Assembly: GCF_002797685.1 (NCBI RefSeq)
Contig: NZ_PGFH01000001.1
Coordinates: 1,240,001 to 1,304,000 of the forward strand
Length of the DNA: 64,000 bases
Origin: Salinibacterium amurskyense
GTDB taxonomy: Bacteria > Actinomycetota > Actinomycetes > Actinomycetales > Microbacteriaceae
Reading direction: 5' to 3'
Positions within the stretch are counted from its first letter, which is position 1. Every line of letters begins with the position of its first letter. The notes below the pieces were generated by a model. That model ran no database searches and was not told the DNA's origin. It was given only the letters and a program-made list of their open reading frames with translations. The position numbers were made by a program, and so were the translations under genes. This document shows positions 44,891 through 62,327 of this stretch, one piece after another.

Positions 44891-45009
44891 ACGTCAAGAA
44901 GTACGCGGGGCGGCTATCACTCTCTAATGGGGACGCTGTGAGCTTGCCATGACGCTCGCGGGAGTGCGCTGAGAGTGCGTGCGCTGGGTCGTGCTAGGGG
45001 GAGTGGCGC

Positions 45010-45351: not shown

Positions 45352-45475
45352 GCGTTCGGTCCTTTGCTTGGTCAGCGCGCGTGGCCCACAGTTTCGCAGG
45401 CTCCGCGGCGGGATGCCACACGGGGCTGTCTGTGAGCCAAGCGATGTGCTGGGATCCACCGCACTCCGGGCACAC
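45308..45475 (-). CDS. Candidate 55-codon zinc-ribbon-like peptide
   Basis: A reading of 55 aa from GTG 45475 that begins VCPECGGSQHIAWLTDSPVW, with a single CPxCG knuckle. Third positions are almost all G or C up to about 45351, where it runs into the YrhK gene in another frame. No Shine-Dalgarno is seen; the terminator hairpin at 45478-45509 directly precedes it. It may be real, a fragment, or chance in GC-rich DNA. Confidence 0.3.
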   Translation of the reverse strand: MCPECGGSQHIAWLTDSPVWHPAAEPAKLWATRADQAKDRTHGRHHFRSLRQHSR

Positions 45476-45477
45476 GA

Positions 45478-45509
45478 AAGGGCCTGCGACCGATCAGTCG
45501 CAGGCCCTT
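45478..45509. terminator. Intrinsic-type hairpin
   Basis: 13-bp perfect stem (45478-45490 with 45497-45509, core AGGGCCTGCGAC) and a six-base loop CGATCA. It lies 29 bases downstream of the minus-strand secreted-protein gene (45539) and can terminate it. Confidence 0.85.
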
Positions 45510-45538
45510 CGTCCTGGGGGAGGTGTGCGGGGTAAGGC

Positions 45539-46117
45539 TTACTCCTCGGTGTCGCTTTCGGTGTTGGTGCTGTCGTCAGCGGAGCCGCTGCGGTCACCCA
45601 TCTGGCCGCGATCTCCGCGCTCACCACGATCGGCGCGGTCGCCACGGTCTCCGCGCTCGCCGTTGCCGGCGTCGGGGTTGGCTTCGCGCTCGGCTTCATG
45701 CTCGGCGCGAAGTTCGGTAAGGGCAGCGGTAAGGGTGTCTTCGTCCACGTTGAGTTCGGCGGCGAGGGCGGTCACGAGGGCTGCTCGGCGCTCATCCTTC
45801 GCTGTCGTTCGTTCTTCTTCGGTGGCGTCGGAATCGAGCCGCTCGGGGCGCTCAGAGCTGTCGCGCAACGCTGCAAAAGCATCCGATACTTCGGTTTCGG
45901 TGAGGTCAAGCTTGGTGGCGAGGCCTGCCGCGTCGAGGCCGCGAGCGTGACCGCGCCCGGCGTGCTCGCCGCTGGTCGTCTTGTCTGTGGTGGTATCGGA
46001 GGCAACTGTCGTGCTGGCGGTCTCGATGGTGTCAGCCTGGGCGGGCAAAGCAATGCCCAGTCCGACACAGGAGGCCAAAACTACGCCGGCTGCTCCTGTG
46101 ATCAGTTTCTTGTTCAT
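45539..46117 (-). CDS. Secreted Arg-Gly-Asp-rich repeat protein
   Basis: A 192-aa exported protein: signal peptide (residues 1-30, cleavage near PAQADT), an Asp/Thr-rich segment, then a helical DUF-like domain with two short helix-turn segments (AAGLATKLDLTETEVSDAFAAL and ALVTALAAELNVDEDTLTAALTEL). These resemble ClpR-type or SHOCT-like helical pairs. The C-terminus is repetitive (GERGDRGDRADRGERGDRG). ATG 46117 with AAGGAT. Function unknown. Confidence 0.75.
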   Translation of the reverse strand: MNKKLITGAAGVVLASCVGLGIALPAQADTIETASTTVASDTTTDKTTSGEHAGRGHARGLDAAGLATKLDLTETEVSDAFAALRDSSERPERLDSDATEEERTTAKDERRAALVTALAAELNVDEDTLTAALTELRAEHEAEREANPDAGNGERGDRGDRADRGERGDRGQMGDRSGSADDSTNTESDTEE

Positions 46118-46249
46118 GGTTGATCCTTTTCGTCCTATCCGGAATCTCCGGTGTACGTGATCAACAGTGCGCGCCAGTTCTATCAAAACGCTGTGGTGAG
46201 TCTGCGCAGGTCATGGGCAAGTTCTGCCGTTCGGCTATGAAGTGTGCGG

Positions 46250-47155
46250 CTATGAAGAGTGAACGGGCTTGTTTGTCGGCGCGAAGGCGAGAACGACCAG
46301 TGAGAGCCCAATAACGCTGAGGCCGATCCAGCCCAGGCTGCTCAAACGCTCACCAACGACTAGCACCGCGAGAATTGCGGCGACCGCCGGTTCGCTCAGG
46401 GTGATGGCGGTTGCGGTGCTGGCGGGCACGCGCGCAAGTCCGTACCCAAAGAGCAGGTAGCCGAGGAACATCGGAACGATGACCATGTAGGCGGCGACGC
46501 TGAAGTTCTGCGCATTCGCGAGGAGCGGGGCCCCGGTGACCGCGAGCACGGGCATCAGCAGGGCTCCACCCACGCCGAAGATTGCGCCCATGGATGCGGC
46601 ACGGCTAACGCCGCGACTCATCAGTCGTTGTGCGGACCACGAGTAGGTGGCGTAGGTGCCGCCGGCGACGAGACCCAACAGGATGCCCAGCACGGTCTGC
46701 ACGGTTTCGCTGGGTTCGTTGCTCATTTTGGCGAGACAGAGCACGATGCTGCCGATGATTCCGAGACCTGCGGCGAATAGCCACCACTTGCTCAGCGGGG
46801 TGCGCTGAATGATGCGCTCGAGGAGCCCGGATGCGAGCGGTGCCGAAGCCAAAGAGACCACCGAGCCGAGCGCGACGCCAGCGAGGTGCATCGAGCTATA
46901 AAAGGCGAGGGGATAGATCGCGACGGCGATCGCTCCGACAATGAGCGAGGTGCGGTTGGCTTTCAGCTGGGGGAGCGCTCGGCGTAACGCAGGGATGGCG
47001 ATAAGGGCTTGCAGGAGCCCGCCAAGTCCGAGCGCGGCGGCACCGATCGCGAGGGGGCCGACGTCGGGGGCGAAAGTTGCCACGGTGCCGGTGGTGCCCC
47101 AAAGGATCGAGGTCGTTGTGATTGCGGCGAAGGCCAGCGAACGCTGACGGTTCAT
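46250..47155 (-). CDS. EamA (DMT) family transporter
   Basis: A 301-aa transporter with two EamA repeats. Seen: TSILWGTTGTVATFAP at the first helix, GSVVSLASAPLASGLLERI closing repeat 1, and VPASTATAITLSEPAVAAILAVLVVGERLSSLGWIGLSVIGLSLVVL closing repeat 2. Likely a metabolite or amino-acid exporter. A TetR gene lies 52 bases upstream in the same orientation and is probably co-transcribed. Confidence 0.9.
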   Translation of the reverse strand: MNRQRSLAFAAITTTSILWGTTGTVATFAPDVGPLAIGAAALGLGGLLQALIAIPALRRALPQLKANRTSLIVGAIAVAIYPLAFYSSMHLAGVALGSVVSLASAPLASGLLERIIQRTPLSKWWLFAAGLGIIGSIVLCLAKMSNEPSETVQTVLGILLGLVAGGTYATYSWSAQRLMSRGVSRAASMGAIFGVGGALLMPVLAVTGAPLLANAQNFSVAAYMVIVPMFLGYLLFGYGLARVPASTATAITLSEPAVAAILAVLVVGERLSSLGWIGLSVIGLSLVVLAFAPTNKPVHSS

Positions 47156-47207
47156 GCTCCGTCTCGCAGTCGTGTTCGTGCGGGTCGATTTCGCACCGAA
47201 TTCTCGT

Positions 47208-47882: not shown

Positions 47883-49484
47883 ATGGAGAAGATTTCCACG
47901 GCCGCTCAACCGTCCCACCCGACGTTTGCGGCTAACGAAGAGTCAATGCGCGGCCTTGTCGAGCAATTGCGCGAACGACTCGCGACGACGGCTCTCGGCG
48001 GCTCGGAGAAATCTCGCGAACGCCATGTTTCCCGCGGCAAGCTGCTGCCTCGCGATCGCGTCGATGAACTGCTCGATGAGGGCAGCCCCTTCATAGAGAT
48101 CGCCCCGCTCGCCGCGAATGGAATATACGACGACCAGGCTCCCGGCGCTGGCGTGATTGCGGGTATCGGCCTCATCCACTCTCGCCCCGTGCTCGTGATC
48201 TCCAACGACGCGACGGTCAAGGGCGGCACCTACTTTCCGCTCACGGTGAAGAAGCATTTGCGGGCTCAAGAGATTGCGCTCGAGAACAAGCTGCCGTGCG
48301 TGTACCTCGTTGACTCGGGTGGCGCTTTTCTCCCGATGCAAGACGAGGTCTTTCCCGATCGCGATCACTTCGGGCGCATCTTCTACAACCAGGCTCGGCT
48401 CTCGGCGGCCGGCATCCCCCAGATTGCTTCGGTTATGGGCTCCTGCACCGCCGGTGGTGCTTACGTGCCGGCGATGAGCGACGAAACGATCATCGTGCGT
48501 AATCAGGGCACGATCTTCTTGGGCGGCCCGCCGCTCGTGAAGGCCGCCATTGGCGAGATCGTCACGGCCGAAGATCTCGGCGGGGGAGACGTGCACGCGC
48601 GCACCTCCGGCGTCACCGACCACCTCGCCGACGACGACCGCCACGCGCTCGAAATTGTGCGGGACATCATCAAGACGATCCCGAAGCCTGCTGCTCCCGC
48701 GTGGGATGTTGTTGCCTCGCGGCCTCCCGCCGTCAACCCTGACGAGCTTTACGGGGTCGTACCCACCGACGTGCAAAGCCCCTACGAAGTGCGCGAAGTG
48801 ATCGCGCGGCTCGTCGATGGCAGCGAGTTCCACGAGTTCAAGAAGGAATACGGCACGACGCTCATCACCGGGTTCGCGACGCTGCACGGGCATCCGATCG
48901 GCATCGTCGCCAACGCCGGGGTGCTGTTCAGCGAATCGGCGCTCAAGGGCGCTCACTTCATCGAACTGTGTGATCAGCGCGGCATCCCGCTGCTGTTCCT
49001 GCAGAACATTTCTGGGTTCATGGTCGGCAAGGAATATGAAGCCGGCGGCATTGCCAAGAACGGCGCCAAAATGGTGACCGCGGTCGCAACGACGCGCGTT
49101 CCCAAGTTCACGGTCGTGATCGGCGGCTCGTTCGGTGCCGGCAACTACTCGATGTGTGGCCGCTCGTATTCGCCACGCTTCTTGTGGATGTGGCCCAACG
49201 CCCGCATTTCGGTCATGGGCGGCCCTCAGGCTGCTGCCGTGCTCTCCACGGTGCGCCGCGACCAGCTCGGCGAAGACGCCTTCACCGACGACGACAAGGT
49301 CGCGTTCGAGAAGCCCATCCGCGAGCAGTATGAACGCCAGGGCAGCCCCTACTATTCGACAGCTCGCCTGTGGGATGACGGAATCATTGACCCCAAAGAC
49401 ACCAGAGACGTGCTCGGCATGGCCCTCGATATCGCCGCGGCCACCCCGCTGCCTGAGCCGGGCTTCGGCCTCTTCCGGATGTGA
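47883..49484 (+). CDS. accD1: Acyl-CoA (methylcrotonyl-CoA) carboxylase carboxyltransferase beta subunit
   Basis: A 533-aa biotin-dependent carboxyltransferase. Two crotonase-like lobes; [40 protein letters not shown] and the tail [34 protein letters not shown] are typical of methylcrotonyl-CoA carboxylase beta. It should carboxylate 3-methylcrotonyl-CoA in leucine degradation. ATG 47883; the GTG upstream frame is not used. The stop overlaps the GTG of the next gene. Confidence 0.92.
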
Positions 49485-49489
49485 TTGCC

Positions 49490-51523
49490 ATGTTCTCTGC
49501 CGTTCTGGTCGCCAATCGTGGCGAAATTTCCTGTCGCATCACGCGCACCCTGCACTCGATGGGCATCCGTTCGATCGCGGTCTACACCGAGCACGATCGT
49601 GACGCGAAGCACGTTCAAGTGGCGGATGCCGCGGTGCTCATCGACAGCTACCTCTCGGTCGAATCGATCGTTGCTGCCGCTCATGCCGTAGACGGCATGC
49701 ATGCTGAGGCGGTTCACCCGGGCTATGGCTTCCTCTCCGAGAATGCACAGCTGGCTGAGGCCTGCGCCGCTGCCGGAATCACGTTCATCGGCCCCGGTGT
49801 CGAAGCACTCGAGATCATGGGTGACAAGATCGCGTCGAAGAAGCACGTGACTGAGCGTGGCGTCGCTGTGATCCCCGGCATCGCTGAGCCGGGCATGACG
49901 AACGATGATCTGGTCGCTGCTGCTACCGAGGTCGGATTCCCGCTGCTGATCAAGCCATCGGCTGGTGGTGGTGGCAAGGGCATGACGATCGTGCGCCAGC
50001 CCGACGCCGTTGCTGGTGCACTCGACTCTGCTCACCGTGTGGCCAGTGCCGCGTTCGGCGATGACACTCTCTTCCTTGAGCGCCTCGTCGAGAAGCCCCG
50101 CCACATCGAGGTGCAGGTGCTGGCCGATAGTCACGGCACGATCATCCACTTGGGCGAACGCGAATGTTCGCTGCAGCGTCGCCACCAGAAGATCATCGAA
50201 GAAGCCCCATCCCCGCTGCTCGATGAGGCAACGCGGCAGCGCATTGGCGAAGCAGCGTGCGAGGTTGCGCGCAGCGTGAGCTACATCGGTGCCGGAACCG
50301 TCGAGTTCCTCGTCTCCGACAATGCTCCCGACGAGTTCTTCTTCATGGAGATGAACACGCGACTGCAAGTGGAGCACCCGGTCACCGAAATGGTCACCGG
50401 CATCGACCTTGTGGAGTGGCAAGTGCGAATCGCTGCTGGCGAGAAGCTCACGGTGGAGACACCGGTGCTTACGGGTCACTCGGTTGAGGCGCGCATCTAC
50501 TCCGAAGATCCTGCCAACGACTTCTTGCCCTCCGCCGGTCAGATCGTGCACCTGCACGAGGCCGGCGACGGCAGTGCGGCCAGCGCTGGCACAAGCAGCG
50601 CCAGCACGACCGACACCGCAGCGGCCAACGTCCGCGTCGACAGCTCGCTCATCCAGGGCGGCACAGTCTCGGCCAACTACGACCCGATGCTTGCCAAGGT
50701 GATCGCCCACGGCGCCACGCGCGCCGAAGCACTCCGAGCCCTCGACCGTGCTCTCGCCGACACCGTCATCCTCGGCGTCACCACCAACATCGAATTCCTC
50801 CGCGCCCTCCTCAACCGCGACGACGTACAAGCCGGCGATCTCGACACCGGCCTCATCGAGCGCGCGCTTGCCGAGATCGAGTTCACCGCCCCCACTCCGG
50901 CGGTGCTCGCAGCGGCGGCTCTGAGCATCCATTCCGAGCGCTGGATGCCGGGCTCACCTTGGCAGCAGCCCAGCGGATGGCGTGTGGGCCAGCATCGCCC
51001 TGCCCGCTACCGTCTCGCTTGTGCGGGGCAGGTGCACGAGGTTCTGGTTGCCGGCCCACCCAACGCAGCGGAAGTCACGATCGACGGCACCACCACTCCG
51101 GCGCGCTTGACGAGCACCGGTGTCGAGTGGGGTGCGCAGAGCATCCGTCTCGCCATGGAAACAGTCGACGCCACGGTGTGGGTTGGGCAGGAGGGCACTT
51201 CCTGGGCTCTCACTGCGCAGTCTCGCGCCGAGTCGTTGGCCGACCACCGCGCCACGCTCGCGAGAGTCGCCGGCGTGGTCGATCCCGAGTTGCGTTCGCC
51301 CATGCCCGGCACCGTTGTGGCCGTTGCGGTGGCGAACGGAGATTCTGTGACTGCCGGTCAGACGGTGCTCACGATTGAAGCCATGAAGATGGAACACCCC
51401 GTTGTCGCAACCCTCGATGGGGTTGTCGACATCAGCTTGAAGCCTGGCGATCTGGTCACACGCGATCAGATCGTTGCCCGAATCGAATCGCCACAAGCGA
51501 GCACTGAAGGAGAAACCTCATGA
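49490..51523 (+). CDS. accA1: Biotin carboxylase / biotin carboxyl carrier alpha subunit
   Basis: A 677-aa alpha subunit. Biotin carboxylase N-domain (AVLVANRGEISCRI), ATP-grasp (KPSAGGGGKGMTIV, ECSLQRRHQKIIEEAPSP, EMNTRLQVEHPVTE) and C-domain, then a linker and BCCP domain with the biotinylated Lys633 in EAMKMEH. A Ser/Ala/Thr-rich insert (about 365-385) interrupts the C-domain. ATG 49490; GTG 49481 overlapping the accD1 stop is an alternative. Partner of AccD1. Confidence 0.93.
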   Translation: MFSAVLVANRGEISCRITRTLHSMGIRSIAVYTEHDRDAKHVQVADAAVLIDSYLSVESIVAAAHAVDGMHAEAVHPGYGFLSENAQLAEACAAAGITFIGPGVEALEIMGDKIASKKHVTERGVAVIPGIAEPGMTNDDLVAAATEVGFPLLIKPSAGGGGKGMTIVRQPDAVAGALDSAHRVASAAFGDDTLFLERLVEKPRHIEVQVLADSHGTIIHLGERECSLQRRHQKIIEEAPSPLLDEATRQRIGEAACEVARSVSYIGAGTVEFLVSDNAPDEFFFMEMNTRLQVEHPVTEMVTGIDLVEWQVRIAAGEKLTVETPVLTGHSVEARIYSEDPANDFLPSAGQIVHLHEAGDGSAASAGTSSASTTDTAAANVRVDSSLIQGGTVSANYDPMLAKVIAHGATRAEALRALDRALADTVILGVTTNIEFLRALLNRDDVQAGDLDTGLIERALAEIEFTAPTPAVLAAAALSIHSERWMPGSPWQQPSGWRVGQHRPARYRLACAGQVHEVLVAGPPNAAEVTIDGTTTPARLTSTGVEWGAQSIRLAMETVDATVWVGQEGTSWALTAQSRAESLADHRATLARVAGVVDPELRSPMPGTVVAVAVANGDSVTAGQTVLTIEAMKMEHPVVATLDGVVDISLKPGDLVTRDQIVARIESPQASTEGETS

Positions 51524-52707
51524 GTCACGACGCTACCCGCGGCGAAATCACCCACCTCGGCCTCACCGATGAGCAATTGAAGTTGAGCGCTGACGTGCGC
51601 GATTTTGCGGACAAGGTTGTTGCCCCGGCAGCGTATGAGTACGACACGAAGCGTGAACTGCCTTACGGCATCATCGCCCAGATGGGTGAGATGGGTCTCT
51701 TCGGTTTGCCGTTCCCCAAGGAGTTTGGCGGGCAGGGCAAGGACTACGTTTCGCTGTGCCTCGCGATTGAGCAGCTTGCTCGCGTTGACCAGTCGATCGC
51801 GGTGACGCTCGAGGCCGGCATCGGTCTTGGCGCGATGCCGATCTTCAAGCACGGTAGCGAAGAGCAGAAGCAGCAGTGGGTTCCGATGCTCGCGCGCGGT
51901 GAAGCTCTCGCTGGTTTCGGGCTGACCGAAGCGGATGCCGGCTCCGATGCTGCGGGAACCAAGACCACTGCCGAGCTCGTCGATGGCGAATGGGTCATCA
52001 ATGGCACGAAGCAGTTCATCACTAACTCGGGCAGCGAGATCACGAAGGTCGTGACGGTCACGGCGGTCACGGGTCGTCGGGAGAATGGCAAGCCTGAGCT
52101 GAGCGCCATCCTCGTTCCAAACGGTACGCCCGGCTTCACGGTGCACCCGCCCTACGACAAGGTCGGCTGGCACACTTCTGACACGCATCCGCTGTCGTTC
52201 GACAACGTGCGCGTGCCCGAAGAGAACCTGATGGGGGAGCGCGGCCGTGGCTTTGCGAACTTCATTGAGGCTCTGGATGAGGGTCGCGTCGCTTTCTCGG
52301 CACTCTGCACCGGTGCGGCTCAGGGCTGCCTGGAGGAGTCGATCCGTTACGCCAACGAGCGTCACGTCTTCGGTCGTTCGATTGGCTCGAACCAGCACAT
52401 TGCGTTCAAGATTGCGCGGATGCAGGCGCGGGTTCACTCGGCACGCTTGGCAACGTACGACGCAGCCCGCAAACTGGTTGCCGGAGTTCCTTTCAAGATG
52501 GAGGCGAGCTTGGCGAAAATGATCAGCAGCGAGGCGGCCATGGATAACGCTCGGGATGCCACCCAAATCTTTGGTGGCTATGGCTTCATGAACGAGAACC
52601 CTGTCGCTCGCCACTACCGTGACTCGAAGGTGCTGGAGCTCGGTGAGGGCACCACTGAGGTGCAGATGATGGTCATTGCTCGTGAGCTGGGATTCGCGAC
52701 CCTATGA
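51520..52707 (+). CDS. Acyl-CoA dehydrogenase (FadE19/AcdH-type short/branched-chain)
   Basis: A 395-aa FAD enzyme, co-translated (ATGA). Motifs: AGFGLTEADAGSDAAGTKT, SFDNVRVPEENLMGERGRGF, RHVFGRSIGSNQHIAFKIA, and DATQIFGGYGFMNENPVARHYRDSKVLELGEGTTEVQ. The catalytic Glu376 is in the EGT motif, as in medium/short-chain enzymes; isovaleryl-CoA dehydrogenase normally uses a Glu elsewhere. The cluster position implies oxidation of a branched acyl-CoA, and 2-methyl-branched as well as isovaleryl-CoA are possible. Confidence 0.92.
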   Translation: MSHDATRGEITHLGLTDEQLKLSADVRDFADKVVAPAAYEYDTKRELPYGIIAQMGEMGLFGLPFPKEFGGQGKDYVSLCLAIEQLARVDQSIAVTLEAGIGLGAMPIFKHGSEEQKQQWVPMLARGEALAGFGLTEADAGSDAAGTKTTAELVDGEWVINGTKQFITNSGSEITKVVTVTAVTGRRENGKPELSAILVPNGTPGFTVHPPYDKVGWHTSDTHPLSFDNVRVPEENLMGERGRGFANFIEALDEGRVAFSALCTGAAQGCLEESIRYANERHVFGRSIGSNQHIAFKIARMQARVHSARLATYDAARKLVAGVPFKMEASLAKMISSEAAMDNARDATQIFGGYGFMNENPVARHYRDSKVLELGEGTTEVQMMVIARELGFATL

Positions 52708-53183
52708 CCGGCAAACGTATTCAGCAGCGCGGTCTCTGGTTCGACGAGTTCGAGGAGGGCGCGGTCTATCTGCACGCGCCCGGCCGCACCGTCACCGAGG
52801 CTGACAATGTTCTCTTCACGACGATGACGATGAACACGCAGTCGCTGCACTTGGATGCCGCGTGGTCGGAGCAGCAGCCGTTCGGGCAGCGTTTGGTGAA
52901 CTCGATGTTCACGCTCTCGACGATGGTGGGGGCATCCGTCGCTCAACTGACTCAGGGCACGATTGTGGCGAACTTGGGCTTCACCGAGGTCAACTTTCCG
53001 CATCCGCTGTATCACGGCGACACGATGTATTCCGAGAGTGAGGTGCTGGAGAAGCGGCTCTCGAAGTCGCGCCCCGGCCAGGGAATCATCTCGTTGCGTC
53101 ACACGGCCAAGAACCAGGACGGTGTTGTGGTGGCTGTCGCAACCCGTTCGGTGATGGTGTGGACTGAGGAGGGCGCACCGTGA
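52704..53183 (+). CDS. MaoC-family hydratase
   Basis: A 159-aa hotdog-fold enoyl-CoA hydratase. The hydratase region reads MTMNTQSLHLDAAWSEQQPFGQRLVNSMFTLS; the usual D-x-N-x-x-H triad is reduced to N...H with Thr in place of the Asp. In the M. tuberculosis order (Rv2499c position) the family hydrates 3-methylglutaconyl-CoA or mesaconyl-CoA. ATGA overlap with the dehydrogenase. Confidence 0.88.
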   Translation: MTGKRIQQRGLWFDEFEEGAVYLHAPGRTVTEADNVLFTTMTMNTQSLHLDAAWSEQQPFGQRLVNSMFTLSTMVGASVAQLTQGTIVANLGFTEVNFPHPLYHGDTMYSESEVLEKRLSKSRPGQGIISLRHTAKNQDGVVVAVATRSVMVWTEEGAP

Positions 53184-53995
53184 TTTTCACTTTAGGGCCG
53201 TCGATTCTGTTTGTTCCGGGCGATCGCCCCGACCGTTATGCCAAGGCGCTGGAGCGCGCGGATGCCATCATCATTGACCTTGAGGATGCCGTTGCCAGCG
53301 TCGATAAGGCTGCGGCCCGCGCTGCTCTGATCGCTAACCCGATGGATCCGGCCCGCACGATTGTGCGACTGAATCCGGCGGGCACCGAGGATCACGATAG
53401 TGACCTCGAGGCGTTGGAGCAGACGGAGTACCGCACGGTGATGCTCTCCAAGTCGGAGTCGGTTGCTGACTTCGATGCGCTGAAAGAGCTCGACGTGATA
53501 GCCCTGTGCGAGACGGCGCGGGGTGTGCTGGCGGCCACAAGTCTGGCGGCGCTGGATTGCGTGGTTGCCCTCATGTGGGGTGCCGAAGATTTGGTGGCAT
53601 CGCTCGGCGGATCATCGTCGCGCGAAGATTCCGGCCCGTACCGTGGTGTCGCGTTGCACGCGCGCTCGTCGGTGTTGTTGGCAGCCGGTGCCTATTCGAA
53701 GGCTGTGATTGATGCGGTGCATCTCGACATCGCAGACCTGGAGGGTCTCGGTGCTGAGGCTCGGGATGCCGCGGCTCTCGGGTTCACGGCAACGGCCTGC
53801 ATTCATCCCTCTCAGGTCGCTATTGTGCGCGAAAGTTATGCGCCCACGGTCGAGCAAATCGCGTCGGCACGGGCACTTCTCGCCGCCGCGGAATCGCAGC
53901 CTGGCGTCTTCAGCTTCGAGGGCCGCATGGTCGACGGCCCCATCCTGCGGCACGCGGAGTGCGTGGTAGCGCGGGCGGGGTTGCGGGAGGGTTGA
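53180..53995 (+). CDS. CitE-like beta-hydroxyacyl-CoA lyase
   Basis: A 271-aa aldolase-type TIM-barrel lyase (HpcH/HpaI CitE family). Opening SILFVPGDRPDRYAKAL, IIIDLEDAVASVDK, then Mg ligands in IALCETARGVLAATSL (Glu) and VALMWGAEDLVASLGG (Asp). The Rv2498c orthologue position gives (R)-HMG-CoA or citramalyl-CoA cleavage to acetyl-CoA plus acetoacetate or pyruvate. GTGA overlap. Last gene of the operon. Confidence 0.9.
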   Translation: MIFTLGPSILFVPGDRPDRYAKALERADAIIIDLEDAVASVDKAAARAALIANPMDPARTIVRLNPAGTEDHDSDLEALEQTEYRTVMLSKSESVADFDALKELDVIALCETARGVLAATSLAALDCVVALMWGAEDLVASLGGSSSREDSGPYRGVALHARSSVLLAAGAYSKAVIDAVHLDIADLEGLGAEARDAAALGFTATACIHPSQVAIVRESYAPTVEQIASARALLAAAESQPGVFSFEGRMVDGPILRHAECVVARAGLREG

Positions 53996-54483
53996 AGCCA
54001 ATCTATTGCCCGGGAGAACTGCGGACACGGCACTCGGTCGGCTGCGTTCGCGTTGAAACTGGGGGCATACCCGATCAGCTGCGTGGTTTGGGCCAATGTG
54101 CCTCATATCTGTCGAGGTGTCTGCTGATTTAAACAGATGGTTGTGACACGTAGTTATGAGAATTCATTCTGATTTCCGAGCCGCGGAAAATCAGGAGTAC
54201 GGGGAAAGGCGGGACGGCGCCAACGAGACTTCCAATATTTCTAGGTTTGTAAAGCTCTAGGCGGGCGGACCGATATGGAGCTGGGTGGGGCGGGCATTCG
54301 TTCGCTGATCCCACGCGCACGCCAAGGGCGTGGCCGGTGACGCCTCGTCGTGAACGTGAAAAATTAGCCATAACAGTCGGCCATATCGGTCGAAGCTCCC
54401 TAGTGGGTTCTGTCACCGCAACGGCCGATTGTGCCATAGATTGAGTTTATGTTCGATATTCTGGCGCTCGAGGGCGTGACCCA
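53996..54483. other. 488-base non-coding gap at the edge of the accessory region
   Basis: No supported gene. The right half is visibly AT-richer. A hairpin with CTGATTT/AAATCAG arms is at 54169-54194. A 14-codon ATG reading (54449-54493) ends inside the start of the next gene in another frame and could be a leader peptide. Confidence 0.5.
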
Positions 54484-55815
54484 GTGCGTCTAGGAGAGAA
54501 TCCCTTTTCCGATTCAGCGATAGCGAATCTTGTCAAGACGAAGTCCGATAATGGCATCCTCCACGTACTGACGCGTGAAAGTGCGACTAAGGAGTTCAAG
54601 GAGACTTTCATGTGGGGGTCGATCGGGCTTTACGCTCGAACGATGGCGGCTTTCGCCAACTCACGCGGCGGGTACATCTTGTTCGGAATCGAAGACAAGC
54701 CCCGTGTGGCCGTAGGGCTAACTGGCAAATCGAAGATCAACTTCGATGATTTGGACCAGGCGAAGCTCACAGAGTCCCTTAATCAACTTTTTTCACCAGA
54801 AATCCACTGGACGCTCGGTCTGATCGAATTGGCGGGTGGCCTCACTCTTGGTGCTATTTACACGTTTGAATCCGACGATAAGCCGCTCGTCGCGACCAAA
54901 AACTACCAACAGCAGAATGCCAAGATTCTCGAAGGAGACATTCTCTATAGATATAATTCTCGATCGCAGCGGATCAAGTTTCCGGAGTTGAAACGACTTC
55001 TGGACGATGCGAAACTGCGGGAGCAACGTGCCATGATGAGCCACATCGAAACCCTCGTAAGAGCAGGCGCGTCGAACGCGGCAGTCTTGGATTTCTCAGA
55101 AAACATCCTCAAAGGGCCGAATGGACAGACAGTCCTCATCGATGAGGGACTTCTCGATCAGATCTCCTTCATAAAAGAGGGCGAGTTCGACGAGGTAGCC
55201 GGCGCACCGACCCTAAAACTCGTGGGCGACCTCCAGCCCGCAACCGCAATTACACTCGGTGAGAACCGCATTGTGCGTACAGCACTTTCCAGCGACGACG
55301 TGCTCGGTGATTTCCTGATCCGCCAGAATGTCGGCAACCCGGAGCAATACATCCGCCAGGCGGCAGCTGGGACAACAGGATACCTCCCAGTTCAGTTCTA
55401 CCGCGTACTAGCTCGGCTGTCCCATGATGAGCTATATGCATACGTCGCGGAGGTTGCTACGCGATCACCCGCTAAGAAAAGACTTCTGGAGCGGCTTTCC
55501 ACTGCAAGCGATATGAAAGTAAGTCCACCGTTAGCTGACTCTCCGCACCCCTCGACAGTAGAACGCCGCCGCTTTTACGACCAGTTGGTAACGGGCGGAG
55601 CAGGAGAGATCGAGATTGTCACCGCGAGTGAAGCGCAACACTTCCTCGTGTCTATCAAGAGCCTAGAAGACGAGCAGATTCACGCCGACGTGGGGGGAGT
55701 GCTTGAGCTCATGAAGATGTGTTTTGATGTTTACTACGCCACAGATTCAAAGGTGGCGGACGCTCTTCGTCGAGCCTCATGCCGAGTAGATAGCGCGATG
55801 TTCGGATCCGCGTAG
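54484..55815 (+). CDS. AlbA_2 (Schlafen-like) domain protein
   Basis: 443 aa from GTG 54484 (no Shine-Dalgarno beyond GGAG inside the codons). Residues about 33-160 match AlbA_2: TKEFKETFMWGSIGLYARTMAAFANSRGGYILFGIED, then PLVATKNYQQQ. The acidic Glu/Lys pair EFKE37-40 and ANSRGGYILFGI are the signature of Schlafen-type RNA/DNA-binding cores. The rest (160-443) is an unassigned helical region with no HTH recognised. It is the first gene of the accessory region and is divergent in content from its surroundings; a defence or regulatory role is inferred. Confidence 0.75.
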   Translation: MRLGENPFSDSAIANLVKTKSDNGILHVLTRESATKEFKETFMWGSIGLYARTMAAFANSRGGYILFGIEDKPRVAVGLTGKSKINFDDLDQAKLTESLNQLFSPEIHWTLGLIELAGGLTLGAIYTFESDDKPLVATKNYQQQNAKILEGDILYRYNSRSQRIKFPELKRLLDDAKLREQRAMMSHIETLVRAGASNAAVLDFSENILKGPNGQTVLIDEGLLDQISFIKEGEFDEVAGAPTLKLVGDLQPATAITLGENRIVRTALSSDDVLGDFLIRQNVGNPEQYIRQAAAGTTGYLPVQFYRVLARLSHDELYAYVAEVATRSPAKKRLLERLSTASDMKVSPPLADSPHPSTVERRRFYDQLVTGGAGEIEIVTASEAQHFLVSIKSLEDEQIHADVGGVLELMKMCFDVYYATDSKVADALRRASCRVDSAMFGSA

Positions 55816-56255
55816 TTCGACCTTTGTTAGGTGAATGGCTGGTTATTCACTCGAGGGTTCCTGTTCGACACGCCATTTTACGTGCTCCGAATCGGTCTTC
55901 GATTGCTGCTTGTCGCTTTCTCTTTTCGCTCGCTTGCCCGAGTCGCACGCGAGGTCTTTCTCTACGTCCGCACATGGGTGAACACCCATCCATAGATGTG
56001 CTCCTAAACGGCGGGATACGTGGCACCGTTTCGACTTGATCTATTTTCCCACAGATGCGGAAGTCAATCGATGCTCGAATGCGCGACCATCTATTTTCAC
56101 GCAGAGCCGCCGCGACCGTGTCTCGTAACCGCCCAGCCTCGCTGTTCATGCGTTTCGAGACACTTCGGTTACCAGTCAATCCGGGGGCTTCGGGGAGAGA
56201 TGCGAAGCACAAGAATTAACGCCTGGTGACGCAATAGGTCGAGCTGTACGAAGCA
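55816..56255. other. 440-base non-coding gap
   Basis: No convincing gene; a 121-codon minus-strand reading (55847-56212) is Arg-rich with poor composition and no SD. A 16-base palindrome ATGGGTGAACACCCAT lies at 55974-55989. Confidence 0.5.
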
Positions 56256-57122
56256 TCAAGTCACCGTCGCGCTGGTCGCCCCATCACCGCCCGGGAGAAT
56301 GTGCACATCTCGGAACCGAGAGGACGGAAACGGAGGTCGTCGATCTGCCGGCGACCAAGTATCCGCGCTTACAGCCCTCATTTGGATGAGTTCGGGGCGC
56401 TGGAATAATGCAGCGAGCATCGCGTCGGTCGCCTCCTCGAAGATCTGTCGCTTCAACACCTCTAAGGCTTCTGTAAGCCGGCCGATTAAGCTGTCTATCA
56501 TCTCGCGAACTCTTTCAACGAAGTCCCGTGGTAACGGCTGCTCGAACGTCATGCTCCGAATCTTCACGAGCTCGACTGAACCGTCTGACAGCCGTTCCAA
56601 ATCGAAAAGTGGCACCGTTACCGTCATCGTGTTCTCGGAGTGCACCGCAAATCGATTACGGAGAATACGAATGCTTTCGGTCAGCTCGGAGTCGTCTGGG
56701 GAGAATTGGACATAATCAGCCAAGTCGCCTCGTACTTTCGACCCCCACGTACGTCCATAGATGCTCACTGCTTGCACTATGAGGTGGCGTTGAGTATCCG
56801 CTTTGTCTGCGCCTGCGGCAGCGTCGATAGCAGATAAGGATTGACGAAGGTCGTGCATGTGGCTCGAGGCAGCGATGTACTTTTGCACAGCCTTCGTGTC
56901 AAAGCCCATTGTCTGCACCCGTGTTCCGCGCTCCTTGTCAATCCCCGCTATCACGGCTTGACGCGCGGCATCCTCGGTGTTCCCCCACGCGCGAAGCTCC
57001 CACTGGGCCTCCTCGCCATCGAGTTTGCGGAAAGATGCGACCGCTCGCCATGCTCCGCGTTTATCAGCCGGTGCCGGGGCGACAATTGGGTCCGAGTGTG
57101 CTCCAGGCGTCAGCTGCTCCAT
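56256..57122 (-). CDS. Unknown protein with HEPN-like motif
   Basis: 288 aa, no recognised family. A helix-rich middle (about 75-170) contains R155-x5-H161 (RNRFAVH) preceded by TESIRILR, the pattern of HEPN ribonuclease/toxin domains (R-N-x4-H near the end of the fourth helix). Flanks: a Trp/Arg-rich N-terminal beta part (WELRAWGNTEDAARQAVIAGI), then a helical stretch REMIDSLIGRLTEALEVLKRQIFEEA, and a Pro/Ser-rich tail. It may be an RNase-type effector. Assignment is pattern-based only. Confidence 0.6.
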   Translation of the reverse strand: MEQLTPGAHSDPIVAPAPADKRGAWRAVASFRKLDGEEAQWELRAWGNTEDAARQAVIAGIDKERGTRVQTMGFDTKAVQKYIAASSHMHDLRQSLSAIDAAAGADKADTQRHLIVQAVSIYGRTWGSKVRGDLADYVQFSPDDSELTESIRILRNRFAVHSENTMTVTVPLFDLERLSDGSVELVKIRSMTFEQPLPRDFVERVREMIDSLIGRLTEALEVLKRQIFEEATDAMLAALFQRPELIQMRAVSADTWSPADRRPPFPSSRFRDVHILPGGDGATSATVT

Positions 57123-57463
57123 GAACCGAAGCGTACAGGGCGGCAGTCAAAATCAAACTTGGCCTAGGTGGTCGTTCTGGGTTGGGGAGAATTTAGTGTC
57201 AAGACGCCATCGAGAGTGGGGTGCAAGGTTCTTGTCCTGTGACGCTCTGGAATCGGCTCAAGGGCACCAGCCTGAACAACATCGCCGACGTCTGATCCAC
57301 CGACCCAAAAACTAGCGCGCTAGAGAACTTTTGATTGGTGAGTAATCGTAGGGTTTGAAGTGTATGGAAGCTGGTGGTGAGGGCTCCCCCCGAGAACGGA
57401 GTCCTCATTATTGTTCGCGGGTCAGCAAGCGCTGTGTCAAGAACCGACTAGAGGGTTCAGGGC
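57123..57463. other. 341-base non-coding gap
   Basis: No supported gene. A hairpin GAGGGCTCC (57379-57387) with GGAGTCCTC (57398-57406) could terminate the neighbouring gene. A short plus-strand stretch ending at 57295 reads like a degraded coding tail (LWNRLKGTSLNNIADV) but cannot be assigned. Confidence 0.45.
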
Positions 57464-58843
57464 TTACAAAACAGGTCCGGCCCCTTCGTCGATGAGTCCC
57501 TGCCCAGTGGCGTTTAGACCGACCCACGTCGCCTCCTCCACCTTGTATTGAATTACTGCAACGGGTCCTAATTCAGCGAACTCGAAGGCCGCTTTTGTGA
57601 GGGATCCGGAAGTCCAGAGCACGGGGGTCTTGTTGAGGGTGATTGCAACCCCGAAGATTTCGCGTATTTCTTCGACTGGTACGGCTCCTGCGTAGTGTTT
57701 GACGCTTACTGCAAAACGGCTAGTCACGACGTCGACCCCGCCATCTTGAGACTGCTGAGTGACCGTTGCGTCATGAGCTCCAAGTGATCGCATGGCATCA
57801 GCAACCCATAATTCGGCGCCACGGGGCGACACTCCGTAAGGCTGAGCGACCGGTGCAGCAAACCCAGTCTCCGCACGTTTGCTCCTCAATTTCTGGTCCC
57901 TCTCCGCGAGAGCTGCCGTTAACAACAACCAACGCTCAGTAAGAGGCGCAACGAGTTCTTCAATGGCTAATCTCGCCCTCTGTATCGCTATCAACCGTTG
58001 CGCGGCTCGCCTCTCCTCTTCTTCCCTGCGTTCGTCATCGCCGAGGGGGAGCGGGGTGCCCAACGGAAAGTCTTCAAGATACTGGTCCCGAGCTAGTTCT
58101 ACCTGTTCGAGCATGTTCGCTTGGAATTCAGTTGAGACGTCGCTCCATGTGAGAGTGATGAACTTCGCGCCAGAATTGTCGAACCTGCGTTCTTCCGTCA
58201 TTCGCTGCACGTACGCCACGGTGATGACTCGGATCGCTTGGGAAACGGCGCCCGCACCGCTATCTTCCTCAAGCGCATGCAACGGTCCTGCGAGTCTCCC
58301 TAATTCTCGGTGGAGATGGAGGAGGTCATCGAACGATACAGACTCATCTCGATTGGTATTGGTGCGTTCGACGAACTCAATCGCTCTTGTGCTGGCGTGC
58401 GCGCGATATTCCTCCCGCGACGCAAGGGCTGCCTGTTCGCGGGTCCAGCGCCTTGTTGCTAGGTTCATGGCTGCCTTCCGCGCAGCGCGTTTATTCTTCT
58501 CTTTTTCCCTGTTTGCGAAGTCCTGAATGCGCTCATTGCGGGATACGCCGTCCAAACCGGATATCCGGCGAAGCACTTCGGAAATTTCCAAATCTCTGAG
58601 GCCCGCTTCAACGAGCGCACCGCTTTTACATTTCCGGGCAGCCGCAATGAAGACTCCGAACAAAGAAGTCTGCTCATCCTCCGTCACGGCCGCGAGATCG
58701 TCTCGAAGTTCTGTTGTTAGGAGCTCAAGATGCATTTTTACGATTTTGGGCTCGCCCTCGACAGCCCAATCGGCAACAGAACCCGCCAGTTTTCCTTCGC
58801 GCATGAAGAACATCCTGAGCTCACGGAGCGTCAGAAATTCCAT
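57464..58843 (-). CDS. Mrr-like restriction endonuclease (PD-(D/E)xK) with long N-terminal region
   Basis: 459 aa from ATG 58843 (GGAGAG upstream; TTG 58897 possible). The first 340 residues are helical and of unknown family. The C-terminal Mrr_cat-like domain begins GVSPRGAELWVADAMRSLGAHDATVT. The core is D367-GGVDVV (D371)...FAVSVKHY (S380-V381-K382), followed by VPVEEIREIFGVAI and PVLWTSGSLTKAAFEFA. The usual acidic/Gln residue before K is Ser. It is downstream of the HNH gene (63-base gap) and probably co-transcribed. Confidence 0.82.
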   Translation of the reverse strand: MEFLTLRELRMFFMREGKLAGSVADWAVEGEPKIVKMHLELLTTELRDDLAAVTEDEQTSLFGVFIAAARKCKSGALVEAGLRDLEISEVLRRISGLDGVSRNERIQDFANREKEKNKRAARKAAMNLATRRWTREQAALASREEYRAHASTRAIEFVERTNTNRDESVSFDDLLHLHRELGRLAGPLHALEEDSGAGAVSQAIRVITVAYVQRMTEERRFDNSGAKFITLTWSDVSTEFQANMLEQVELARDQYLEDFPLGTPLPLGDDERREEEERRAAQRLIAIQRARLAIEELVAPLTERWLLLTAALAERDQKLRSKRAETGFAAPVAQPYGVSPRGAELWVADAMRSLGAHDATVTQQSQDGGVDVVTSRFAVSVKHYAGAVPVEEIREIFGVAITLNKTPVLWTSGSLTKAAFEFAELGPVAVIQYKVEEATWVGLNATGQGLIDEGAGPVL

Positions 58844-58906
58844 AGTTCTCTCCAATTCGAACTCACGGGCACCCGCGAGCACGTGCGCGTCGGGCAACCG
58901 CGCGAT

Positions 58907-60331
58907 TCAATATCCCAGCTCGATTCGCCGATTCAACTTTGCGGGGTCAGGAGGACTCGAAGCTGGCTTAGCTAGTTCGACGTCATCGATCTTTCTCAGC
59001 TCGGCTTTGAGGATCGGGTCGCTTTTGACTTTGTCCCAGCGGACAGAGGTCCGGGCGTTCGGGCGTATTTCGAGGAAGCCCGCGTCAAATGCGCGATCGA
59101 CAAAGGTCGACAGGCAAATGCCGTTGCTAGGGTCGGTCCGAATATTCTCGTCATCGCTCCACGGAACGATATGGGATGCCACCAAGAACTCGCGTGTGCT
59201 GATGCCAGTCACGGCGCATTCCCCGCCATAGTTCGCCTTCACTGCCTTCGAGAAGACGCGCTGGGCGCTCCCGCGTATCTTCGTCGTTCCGGTCTGATCC
59301 TCGACGCGGAAAACTCCTAAGTCGAAGTCCTTTTGGATCGCAGAAGTCAACTTCGGGTCAGCGTCTGCAGCCTCGGCGATCTGGTCGTTTAGGACACCGC
59401 GAACAATTGTGGGCTCAAAGCTGCACCAGCCGTTACCGTCGAAGTAAATGGTGTCGGCTACGCGTCGATATACCCATTTGGTGTTGTCTGAAAATTCTGA
59501 CTCACCCTTGAAAACTCCAAGGAACGCGTAATAGTTGGGGCCCGGTCGGGACTTCATGTGGCCGAAGGTGAATACATATTCCCGAAGTTGCTTCGACTCC
59601 ATAACATCTGCGTACTCGCCCCCGAGAACAGGAACCATGGTGATCGTGTCGCCCATGTCGGAAAGCGAGTTGGCCCAGTCCTTGTTCTCATACATCTTCG
59701 GGAACCAGACCTCTATGGACTCATCGAGCCGTATCGTCGCCCTTTGGTGGCCTTTAAAGTCGTGACCGAAGAGCTTAGCTACTTGTACATGGGTGCTAAA
59801 CGGGACGTGGTCGTTCACCGATAGACGGCCGTGTTCGATTAGATCTTCGAGCCAGACCGCGTCGGCATTGGGAACGAGACTCTTGCGGCGCCGGACTGTA
59901 ACCTGTGGCGTGAGCGTCGGCTGTCCGCCGTCTTCCGGCAGATCTTTGGCGTAACGCTTGTAGCAGAGCAGCCTGTGCTCGGCAGCCATATCGTCAACAT
60001 CAGAAGCCGTGCTTTCTGCTCCGAACCGAGGCGCCCGTTCGTACCCTGGCCCCATGGACCCGTCAGCGCGTATACAGAGCGATGTCAGTGGTGGTTCTTC
60101 AGCGTCAGCTGCACGTTGCGCTGCAATCTCAAGAACATCGCCAATCCAGTGTTTGATTAGTTGATCTGTTTTGATGCCCGTTCTGCTTTGCAAAAGCAGC
60201 GCAAGCTTCTTGTAGGTAATCGTGTTGTTGTATCGATGAGCAACTTCTTTGAGTGTCTCGTAGGCCACAGGTGCCCATAGCGCGAGCGTTTCGGCAGGGG
60301 CAACTTCAGTGCCATCAGATCGGGAATACAT
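58907..60331 (-). CDS. HNH endonuclease-domain protein
   Basis: 474 aa. Residues about 350-425 form an HNH_2 domain: SAQRVFSKAVKANYGGECAVTGISTREFLVASHIVPWS, His387, DPSNGICLSTFVDRAFDAGFLEI with Asn403. A Val411 sits where some relatives have His. The N-terminal 340 residues are unassigned; LREYVFTFGHMKSRPGPNYYAFLGVFKG looks like a PUA/ASCH-type binding module. A restriction-like function is likely. ATG 60331 has no SD; -10 CATACT six bases upstream suggests a leaderless transcript. Confidence 0.82.
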   Translation of the reverse strand: MYSRSDGTEVAPAETLALWAPVAYETLKEVAHRYNNTITYKKLALLLQSRTGIKTDQLIKHWIGDVLEIAAQRAADAEEPPLTSLCIRADGSMGPGYERAPRFGAESTASDVDDMAAEHRLLCYKRYAKDLPEDGGQPTLTPQVTVRRRKSLVPNADAVWLEDLIEHGRLSVNDHVPFSTHVQVAKLFGHDFKGHQRATIRLDESIEVWFPKMYENKDWANSLSDMGDTITMVPVLGGEYADVMESKQLREYVFTFGHMKSRPGPNYYAFLGVFKGESEFSDNTKWVYRRVADTIYFDGNGWCSFEPTIVRGVLNDQIAEAADADPKLTSAIQKDFDLGVFRVEDQTGTTKIRGSAQRVFSKAVKANYGGECAVTGISTREFLVASHIVPWSDDENIRTDPSNGICLSTFVDRAFDAGFLEIRPNARTSVRWDKVKSDPILKAELRKIDDVELAKPASSPPDPAKLNRRIELGY

Positions 60332-60676
60332 GGGCCCAGTATGGCGTGACGGTCACGCTGTGCGTGGATTCCACGCTCTATGGAGAGAAGTGGCTTTTGG
60401 TGCGGGCGGCGCGGAGGCATTGTTCGGATCAGCCATTACCGTTGTTGCCTACTTGGTTATAGAGCGCGTGTACGCAATCGGTGAGCACAAGTTCGATTAC
60501 GCAGGTCTTCCATTTGGTGGTTCGGGAGAGCGGCCGGCGGTTTGCCGCATGTGGCGCATGCGAAGCCCGGTGACCGAACTCCGTGCTGTGTGTATTCGGG
60601 CCCGCCGGATGCTGCTCAAAAAAGCACGTCATGCGCTGCACCGTCAATACCGGGCTATTCCGAGCACCTAACCGCC
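60332..60676. other. 345-base non-coding gap with operator
   Basis: Apart from the palindrome at 60344-60358 and the promoter of the HNH gene, no gene is supported. The 120-codon plus-strand reading 60309-60671 has an irregular composition and no start signal. Confidence 0.5.
60344..60358. promoter_or_regulatory. 15-bp perfect palindrome in the restriction-unit promoter
   Basis: GCGTGACGGTCACGC (7-bp arms around one base), 12 bases upstream of the ATG and directly upstream of the candidate -10 (60338-60343). It overlaps the promoter spacer, so a bound protein could block transcription. The cognate regulator is not known. Confidence 0.65.
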
Positions 60677-62032
60677 TCAGACCATCGACCCCAGATCTGA
60701 CCCGGTCGACGGGTAAGCGGCGGTTGTCGCCTTGATTTGGCGGGTGGTGAGGCCGTTCTTCATGGCGAGAGCGATCGTGTTGGCGAGTTCGGCGTAGTCG
60801 TGGCCGAGGAGGTGGGCGCCGATGATGCGGTCGGTGCTCTTGTCGACCAGAATCTTTGTCGCACCGGTCGTTTCACCAATGCGGTAGCTGGAGAACCATC
60901 CGCTCGTGTCAGTGAATCGCACGTCAACGTTGAGCCCGCTTTCCTTGGCCTCGTGCTCGAGCATGCCGACTCTCACAAGTTCCGGAATGGTGAGCACCGC
61001 AGTGGGAATGGCGCTGTAATCCGGTGTCGCCGAATTCGGCTTCAACATGTTGGATGCCGCGATCTTGGCCTCGAACACCGCCACCGGTGTCAGCGGCATC
61101 CCTGGGGTGTCCGCAGCATCGCCGGCCGCATACACGTCAGGGTTCGTGGTGCTCTGAAGGTGCTCCGAAACTTGGATGCCGCGAGGGCCGAAAGCGACAT
61201 TGGCCGCTTCGAGGTTCAGGCGATCGAGGTCTGCGGTGCGCCCCGCACCGTGCACGACGAGGTCAACATCCATCGTGGATTCTGTGTCGCCCTGTTGAGT
61301 CGTAACCCGGAAACCTTGGGTGAGTTTCTCGACACTCGTGATGGTTGTCTCGCGGCGCACGGCGACGCCAGCGCTCTCACCACGCTTGAGCAAGAGTTCG
61401 ACGAGGTCGGGGTCAAAACCCTTCAGCGGGATGCGGCCGCGGTCGATGACTACCGGGGTGCTTCCCGCGCGGGCAGCGATGTGCGCAAACTCGAACGACA
61501 CAAAGCCGCCGCCGATGAACGCAATCCGTCGCGGAAGCTCGGGGAGATTGAGAAAGCCCGTGCTGTCGATGAGGTGCTCGTGGCCGGGGAAGTTGAGCTC
61601 GCGGGGCACTGCACCGGTAGCGATCAAGAACTTGTTTGCCTGAAACTTGGTGCCGTCGATCTCGATGTGGTTGTTGTCGACGAACGTCGCGATGCCGTGC
61701 AGGGTGTCAACGCCGGCCGCCTTGAGCCCCTTCTCCATGCTCTCGGGCACCGGATCGGTGAAGCCGTGCTTGTGCTGCATGAGGTCAGCCCAGTTGACGC
61801 TGAGGTCATCCGCGTTGATTCCCTTGTCGGCGAAGAGGCGGGCAGAGTCGACGATCTCTGCAGCGCGCCGAAGGATCTTCTTGGGGTCGCATCCACGAAG
61901 CGCGCACGTGCCGCCATAGGGGAGTGCATCCACAATTCCGACGCGCCACCCGCGTGACGCCGTCTTCTTCGCGGCGGCAATGCCGGCCATTCCGGCTCCG
62001 ATGACGAGCAATTCATAGTTGTTGTCACTCAT
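60677..62032 (-). CDS. NAD(P)/FAD-dependent disulfide oxidoreductase (merA/lpd-like)
   Basis: A 451-aa class I flavoprotein disulfide reductase. FAD site VIGAGMAGIAAAK, redox pair Cys43/Cys48 in GGTCALRGCDPKK, NAD(P) site FIGGGFVSFEFAHIAARAG, VYAAGDAAD. The C-terminal motif that usually holds HPT-E is AAYPSTGSDL, with Tyr440 in place of the His. The family is related to mercuric and dihydrolipoyl reductases; the substrate is not certain. Overlaps the thioredoxin-like gene by 8 bases. Confidence 0.88.
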   Translation of the reverse strand: MSDNNYELLVIGAGMAGIAAAKKTASRGWRVGIVDALPYGGTCALRGCDPKKILRRAAEIVDSARLFADKGINADDLSVNWADLMQHKHGFTDPVPESMEKGLKAAGVDTLHGIATFVDNNHIEIDGTKFQANKFLIATGAVPRELNFPGHEHLIDSTGFLNLPELPRRIAFIGGGFVSFEFAHIAARAGSTPVVIDRGRIPLKGFDPDLVELLLKRGESAGVAVRRETTITSVEKLTQGFRVTTQQGDTESTMDVDLVVHGAGRTADLDRLNLEAANVAFGPRGIQVSEHLQSTTNPDVYAAGDAADTPGMPLTPVAVFEAKIAASNMLKPNSATPDYSAIPTAVLTIPELVRVGMLEHEAKESGLNVDVRFTDTSGWFSSYRIGETTGATKILVDKSTDRIIGAHLLGHDYAELANTIALAMKNGLTTRQIKATTAAYPSTGSDLGSMV

Positions 62033-62327
62033 GGCTGTTCAACTTCTCTCTCAGCTGGTCAACGGTGGGTGCGCCGGCAAAGCCAGCCGGGGTGATGTAG
62101 CGGCGGCAGGCAAGCCCGACCGGGGCATCCGGCTGGGCAAAGGGATCCACACCATCGAAGAGGATGCTCGGCGACCCGCGGAACCCCACACGCTCAGCTT
62201 CCTCGACCGTGTCGACCAGGTGTCGCGACACGGTTATCTGCGTGAACTCCTGTACGAGTTCGGTGATGTGCTGATCGGCAACCTTCCAGTTGGGGCAGCC
62301 CTCGAAGTATTGCAGCGTGATTTCCAT
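62025..62327 (-). CDS. Thioredoxin-like small protein (alkylmercury-lyase-associated)
   Basis: 100 aa. N-terminal MEITLQYFEGCPNWKVAD with Cys11 but no second Cys in the motif; another Cys74 lies in GLACRRY. cis-Pro region RGSPSILFDGVDPF. This short family is often annotated as thioredoxin or alkylmercury lyase and accompanies MerR-controlled flavoprotein reductases. ATG 62327 sits about seven bases from the -10, so the message may be leaderless. Confidence 0.82.
   Translation of the reverse strand: MEITLQYFEGCPNWKVADQHITELVQEFTQITVSRHLVDTVEEAERVGFRGSPSILFDGVDPFAQPDAPVGLACRRYITPAGFAGAPTVDQLREKLNSHE

Follow-up and report, generated by a model that had tools for sequence, protein, structure and literature searches.

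What brings four genes with no tie to core metabolism together between two ordinary genes, and do such genes form one defence system or several? We address this question for an accessory block of about 6.7 kb (positions 53996-60676) in a 64,000-nucleotide (nt) stretch of Salinibacterium amurskyense DNA (assembly GCF_002797685.1, contig NZ_PGFH01000001.1, positions 1,240,001 to 1,304,000), which is called the window here and to which all positions refer unless stated otherwise. The block consists of four large open reading frames (ORFs), coding from left to right for an SLFN/AlbA_2-domain protein (P0001), a HEPN-like protein (P0002), an Mrr-type nuclease (P0003) and an SRA-HNH protein (P0004). 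We suggest, with a probability of about 0.68, that they are independently acquired anti-phage modules residing in a hypervariable slot, whose cargo changes without an integrase of its own. The slot is the stronger discovery, and its mode of change is more interesting than the four genes themselves.

A preliminary description, made from the letters of the window alone, had placed four accessory genes between ordinary flanks, which is confirmed. The left border of the slot is P0008, a citE-like HpcH/HpaI lyase gene (53180..53995, plus strand; PF03328, 2.4e-25), hereafter citE, and the right border is P0007, coding for a flavin adenine dinucleotide (FAD) disulphide oxidoreductase (60677-62032, minus strand; PF07992, 1.3e-50). 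The weaker GC bias noticed by eye is borne out as well. GC content is 0.556 in 53996-60676 and 0.621 in the remaining window, none of 474 overlapping segments of equal length to the left of the slot has so low a value, and GC at third codon positions is 0.59-0.63 in the island genes vs 0.69-0.81 in five flanking genes. Intergenic gaps measure, from left to right, 488, 440, 341, 9 and 345 nt; the gaps of 340-490 nt described before thus hold except between P0003 and P0004, which are 9 nt apart (63 nt if P0003 starts at ATG 58843), so that the two DNA-nuclease genes are almost contiguous. The order of these two had been given with the HNH gene first and is corrected here, and the SRA domain had gone unnamed. 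No structured RNA in the region reached Rfam gathering scores.

The slot itself becomes apparent from comparison with ten sister genomes of the genus, whose citE orthologues are 93-99% identical to P0008 at the protein level. Synteny breaks at 53985-53995, that is, at the citE stop, in all ten, and homology returns only after 1.45-9.66 kb of other DNA. The sequences behind the stop codons of 11 full citE copies are unrelated to each other; over 60 nt, the 55 pairs have a mean ungapped identity of 0.26 and a maximum of 0.40. On the right side, P0007 is 90-96% identical in five sisters, whereas at the slot of the other five it is incomplete or absent. The content of the slot differs accordingly, and known or candidate defence genes are present in six of the ten sister slots: Gabija GajA and GajB in G001; GajA, GajB and a KAP/PifA-like protein in G016; an OLD/GajA-like ATPase in G005; a CAP12-type TIR protein in G018; Shedu SduA with a DEDDh exonuclease of candidate PDC-S48 in G021; and a P0004 homologue, PDC-S60 and Hypoth_Ymh in G026. 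Together with the nuclease and effector domains of the block, these Gabija, OLD, Shedu, TIR and KAP/PifA-like genes support the defence reading put forward in the preliminary description. Universality within the genus, which would have refuted that reading, was not found, as full-length homologues of P0001, P0002, P0003 and P0004 occur in only 1, 1, 1 and 2 of 27 genus genomes, respectively.

How the cargo is exchanged can be approached through the border gene. Six truncated 3´ copies of citE lie in the slots of 5 of the 11 genomes; they start at citE nt 275, 291, 318, 394, 460 and 527, end at nt 798-816 and are 286-540 nt long. Breakpoints were sought by site-pattern scans in three genomes (G005, G012 and G018), with split points chosen after looking at the data. 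The G005 breakpoint is at 53674, inside citE, and that of G018 at about 52.1-52.3 kb, with 0 of 2000 permutations as strong in either case. Among 20 control segments per genome, which overlap, stem from one 35-kb stretch and are based on 7 reference genomes rather than 8, one was as strong for G005 (46.5-49.8 kb) and none for G018; the former probably marks where the same tract has its other end. At 48000-53670, the number of variants common to G005 and G012 is unusually high compared with the rest of the flank, elsewhere in which they are not especially close, and the most fitting reading of the G005 signal is therefore a tract of about 48-53.7 kb that G005 has in common with G012 and that ends inside citE.

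On the ground of the citE remnants and the breakpoints, we propose that homologous recombination in the border gene brings in cargo and that one-sided joins leave citE stumps. In the resulting model, a slot between the citE-like gene and the convergent disulphide-reductase-like gene would have its cargo swapped between species without an own integrase, the most likely route being homologous recombination within the flanking genes, and the truncated citE 3´ copies would be scars of one-sided events. Further pieces of citE were seen. A truncated copy in G012 (L105 1228-3272; G012:C1, near 1.2 Mb) is situated directly behind a putative transposase gene, which we take to be of IS110 type, and a citE 3´ fragment far from the slot in G018 (L109 4157-4293; G018:C1) is followed by DNA like that behind this genome's own citE.

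All 10 of 10 sisters have the junction at the citE stop, which is reminiscent of elements that target the 3´ ends of genes and might also be understood if the block were what is left of an integrative element or prophage after site-specific insertion at the citE 3´ end and later decay, and one weak copy of the citE end is indeed present near the right border in G010 (7 of 25 mismatches, about 1.43 kb past the stop). We consider this origin improbable. Within the window, the citE end has no match other than itself, and, the weak G010 match apart, the copies in sisters sit within truncated citE genes, which argues against classical att insertion. The length of the remnants and their six different 5´ ends do not fit such an element either. 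Moreover, of 29 sister slot ORFs profiled with Pfam (20 + 9, some smaller ORFs being outside this set), none matched a family of integrases, transposases or recombinases at E up to 0.01. Of the marks of site-specific integrative elements, an integrase was thus not found among the profiled ORFs, and att repeats not found in the window. Two other kinds of boundary were tried and rejected. The repeats at the own island, among the 20 of 45 listed, form short families only and do not include direct repeats bounding it; and the integron core motif, GTTRRRY, has no counterpart at the junction, since the bases after GTT fit, by eye, about as often as expected by chance.

More tentatively, the exchange by homologous recombination might have a more regular form, and it is possible, if somewhat doubtful, that we are looking at an integrase-free cassette system in which defence cassettes are stacked additively with the citE 3´ end as homology handle. 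Each cassette would carry a 3´ piece of citE, and one RecA-type crossover within the resident citE would be enough to bring it in. Full citE would be restored each time, and the older cassette with its citE stump would be pushed downstream. The cassettes could then be excised by recombination via the direct repeats of 286-540 nt. In the same scheme, the P0004 pocket, which has methionine in place of glutamate at position 228 (E228->M in PvuRts1I numbering), would recognize something other than hydroxymethylcytosine.

Returning to independently acquired modules, the second part of our question is whether the four genes belong together. The preliminary description had envisaged one locus made of a restriction unit and an RNase effector, which we find unsupported. 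G026 has P0004 in the same slot (58906-60348 of the window vs L098 7056-5614, 89.2% identity) without the other three genes. Homology between the window and G026 stops at the P0004 stop codon, and the genes that follow in G026 code for a PDC-S60-like protein (with DUF4062 below the Pfam cut-off) and then a Hypoth_Ymh protein. P0001, P0002 and P0003 are absent from all ten sister slots and P0004 occurs in this one only. At the other end of the slot, both genomes share the 237 nt that follow the citE end (53996..54232, part of an 84.5% match of 53639-54232 to L098), in G026 behind a truncated citE copy. What follows the stop in the other citE copies is unrelated. With the shared 237 nt and the shared P0004, it seems that the two ends of an older slot were passed on to both species, the middle being different.

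The idea of one compound system, in which P0004 and P0003 would make up a restriction unit of two genes and the putative RNases would serve it as back-up, draws on the tandem arrangement of these two genes, which are probably co-transcribed because only 9 or 63 nt separate them. HEPN and Schlafen RNases are, furthermore, described as back-up effectors beside BREX cores in an excerpt of PMC12839542. The slot of G026 speaks against such a system, as does the position of P0001 on the opposite strand, 440 nt from P0002. Loci around relatives of the four proteins, which mostly reach about 1.5 kb to each side, revealed no linkage within that span: a P0004 relative is encoded in none of 16 loci around P0003 relatives (14 of them with short flanks), relatives of P0001, P0003 or P0004 in none of nine loci around P0002 relatives, and P0001, P0002 or P0003 in none of nine loci around P0004 relatives. 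We reject an obligate four-gene or two-gene system on the ground of the G026 slot and of relatives unlinked within that span, and a compound system in general seems to us unlikely. By content and location, the block is probably a defence locus consisting of three to four separate modules. We infer the biochemical activities, the anti-phage function and the direction of transfer from sequence, and the profile search of all four proteins that had been called for in the preliminary description yielded SLFN/AlbA_2, Mrr_cat and SRA plus HNH matches, with no family for P0002.

P0004 (58907-60331, minus strand) appears to be a restriction enzyme of a new domain combination, in which a PvuRts1I-type SRA domain is joined to an HNH nuclease and preceded by another, N-terminal domain. 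The SRA domain matches PF18491 (7.7e-24, 84.7 bits vs a cut-off of 30.2) and aligns with AbaSI (1.8e-11) and PvuRts1I (1.7e-06), and the HNH_2 domain matches PF13391 (3.7e-10, 40 bits vs a cut-off of 21) and aligns with 6yex, deposited as an HNH endonuclease (1.1e-08). PADLOC matches are mREase_II and HNH (the latter at 2.3e-29). We propose that P0004 probably uses its SRA domain to bind a modified base in the DNA of phages and its HNH domain to cut nearby, acting as a type IV, modification-dependent restriction enzyme. With PvuRts1I and AbaSI, which read 5-hydroxymethylcytosine and its glucosylated form, it shares the type of SRA domain and, as read from the alignment, equivalents of PvuRts1I W205, P207, Y210, W215 and N217. 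It differs from PvuRts1I in that the PD-(D/E)XK domain is replaced by HNH C-terminal to SRA, in the extra N-domain, and in the substitutions R208->K, A212->N (as in AbaSI), E228->M and R244->V. At the E228 position, the G026 homologue has M, a Streptococcus phage relative Q and two plasmid AbaSI-family proteins E. According to excerpts of two crystal-structure papers, W215A, E228A and E228K abolish PvuRts1I activity, and the base read by P0004 is for this reason uncertain. The host genome has DNA_methylase (PF00145) matches at two places, so an enzyme that cuts at any 5-methylcytosine would risk self-damage.

Joining a reader domain to an HNH nuclease in one chain has precedents. TagI, ScoA3IV, HhiV4I and HtuIII are presented in excerpts of PMC6212794 and PMC11037411 as modification-dependent endonucleases of the SRA-HNH or PUA-wH-HNH type; P0004 resembles them in this architecture and is unlike them in the PvuRts1I type of its SRA domain and in having the N-domain as a separate module. 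The His-Asn-His residues are given as essential for TagI in the excerpt of PMC6212794. The first His and the Asn are kept in P0004, the third residue is Asp as in several relatives (by eye), and Asp is also kept at the position of TagI Asp258. In the literature on such enzymes, we found no publication title or abstract opening that names the combination of PvuRts1I-type SRA with HNH.

The N-domain of P0004 (about residues 5-150) is found by itself in proteins of about 200 amino acids, and it is also carried by P0011, a 610-amino-acid protein of G016 encoded away from the slot (L116 1492-3324; G016:C5, about 62.5-64.4 kb), whose middle is EVE-like and C-terminal end HNH-like by eye, with no Pfam match. 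This distribution suggests a swappable module. A single-sequence model of the N-domain, with a mean confidence score (pLDDT) of 47.5, has the order helix-strand-helix-helix-strand, which would fit a winged helix and is too weak for a claim. P0004 was matched in 39 of 299 family genomes (own included, 38 of the matches partial), and PF18491 in one of 394 genomes drawn from the class (the own one), its rarity in the class being a sample estimate. A hypothetical protein of 279 amino acids from Streptococcus phage YS225 (L135 2051-2890) was noticed as well; its C-terminal part shares 39% identity with the SRA domain of P0004, and it aligns with AbaSI-family proteins.

P0003 (57464-58897, minus strand) is predicted to be an Mrr-type DNA nuclease. 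Its residues 356-449 match Mrr_cat (PF04471) at 1.2e-13 with 51.6 bits vs a cut-off of 21. The longest frame begins at TTG 58897; from the sequence, ATG 58843, preceded by the Shine-Dalgarno-like GGAGAG, is likely the better start. The first 260 or so residues are outside the best matched stretch of every relative found. The catalytic motif of Mrr-type restriction nucleases is defined as D...(Q/E)xK. In P0003 it reads DGGVD-x9-SVK, with D389 and K400 kept and SVK in place of the commoner QxK; among 13 P0003-type sequences, 10 have DGG(V/I)D...QxK and three, P0003 included, have SVK. P0003 was matched in 20 of 299 family genomes (own included, 19 of the matches partial). Searches of solved structures with P0003 gave nothing meaningful, and a genome contig search with P0003 and P0004 found no relatives.

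The deviations just described, SVK in P0003 and E228->M in P0004, are what one would expect if the genes were degenerate, or housekeeping genes with no part in defence. We regard this as very unlikely. All four frames are open across 288-477 codons, and P0004 is under purifying selection, since its ratio of nonsynonymous to synonymous substitution rates (dN/dS) relative to the G026 homologue is 0.156, with dS of 0.37, close to the 0.34 and 0.25 of the flanks. The SVK form recurs in a G012 protein of the same genus (45% identity) and in a G191 protein of another genus (55%), and in six sisters the slot is shared with known or candidate genes of defence.

The two remaining genes point to RNA rather than DNA. 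P0002 (56256-57122, minus strand) has no Pfam or PADLOC family match above cut-off and no HEPN family match, and it gave neither a plasmid match nor, with its profile, any meaningful hit among solved structures. HEPN RNases typically bear the motif Rx4-6H, often with RN, and P0002 contains it as RNx4H; R155, N156 and H161 are invariant in all five aligned sequences, that is, P0002 and four of its nine family relatives. It was matched in 10 of 398 family genomes (own included, nine of the matches weak). P0001 (54484-55815, plus strand), a putative RNase or RNA-binding effector, matches PF04326 (SLFN_AlbA_2) with residues 32-164 (3.8e-17, 63.4 bits vs a cut-off of 25.3). Among 299 family genomes only the own one has a match, and the best plasmid relative, 42% identical over half of the protein, is encoded on a Psychrobacter plasmid, adjoining a type I restriction operon. 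Viral contigs searched with P0001, P0002 and P0003, as well as with A1 and A3, contained no relatives. We suggest, from motif and domain, that P0001 and P0002 are probably RNA-cleaving or RNA-binding effectors acting through growth arrest. A 2025 preprint on bacterial Schlafens as anti-phage genes is cited in the excerpt of PMC12839542.

Several observations weigh against independently acquired anti-phage modules in a recombining slot. Firstly, the comparison covers 10 of 26 sister genomes, chosen because their citE orthologue has a protein identity of 93% or more, and of the other 16, four had their citE stretches compared by BLAST only. Secondly, only 5 of these 10 sisters have an intact right border gene. 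All ten show further breaks in synteny, one near 37 kb and another within 42-47 kb (42000-47200), so the neighbourhood as a whole is plastic. Thirdly, no breakpoint was found in G012, where 460 of 2000 permutations were as strong. Fourthly, four slots are without a recognized defence gene: that of G012 with a DUF4145 protein, that of G006 with a helix-turn-helix protein, that of G010, whose single scanned ORF had no family, and that of G011, whose ORFs are unprofiled. Finally, P0003 departs from D...(Q/E)xK and the P0004 pocket combines W215 with M in place of E228, and thus either enzyme could be altered or weak.

Two side observations concern the slot and its right border. Proteins of 663 and 619 amino acids encoded in sister slots (L097 8382-10373 and L099 8922-10781) match neither a Pfam nor a PADLOC family at E up to 0.01 and are candidate unknown defence genes. 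The same internal deletion of P0007 (about codons 1-367; window 60930..62040) is seen in G006, G010, G012 and G026, the last of which carries an intact P0007 besides the deleted copy.

Among known systems, the slot comes closest to minimal mobile elements (Saunders and Snyder 2002), in which, according to an excerpt of PMC3898611, different whole-gene cassettes are found between two conserved genes and move by homologous recombination. Different cassettes between conserved genes are seen here too (for the left border in the own genome and ten sisters); unlike in the described elements, much of the recognized cargo is defence and truncated 3´ copies of the border gene are kept. The slot fits the definition except for homologous recombination as the only route, which is not proven. 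It also resembles the core defence hotspots cDHS1/2 of Pseudomonas aeruginosa, which hold variable defence cargo between core genes and for which an excerpt of PMC10250203 proposes homologous recombination of the flanks, leaving it to future work. The same excerpt gives tRNA or tmRNA genes as their flanks and transposases as the commonest mobile gene, with 29% and 47% of the sites without a detectable mobile gene. In contrast, our slot is bordered by two protein genes and has no mobile-element gene among the profiled ORFs. No literature on defence island hotspots in Microbacteriaceae was found.

Taken together, the slot behind citE is an addressable place for harvesting untested defence genes, which can be done by fetching the DNA after one conserved stop codon. 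P0004 adds a PvuRts1I-type SRA domain to the toolbox of reader-plus-HNH enzymes, and its base specificity is directly testable. Beyond the individual genes, the sequence of the slot offers a record of the way in which integrase-free acquisition of cargo by defence islands may take place.

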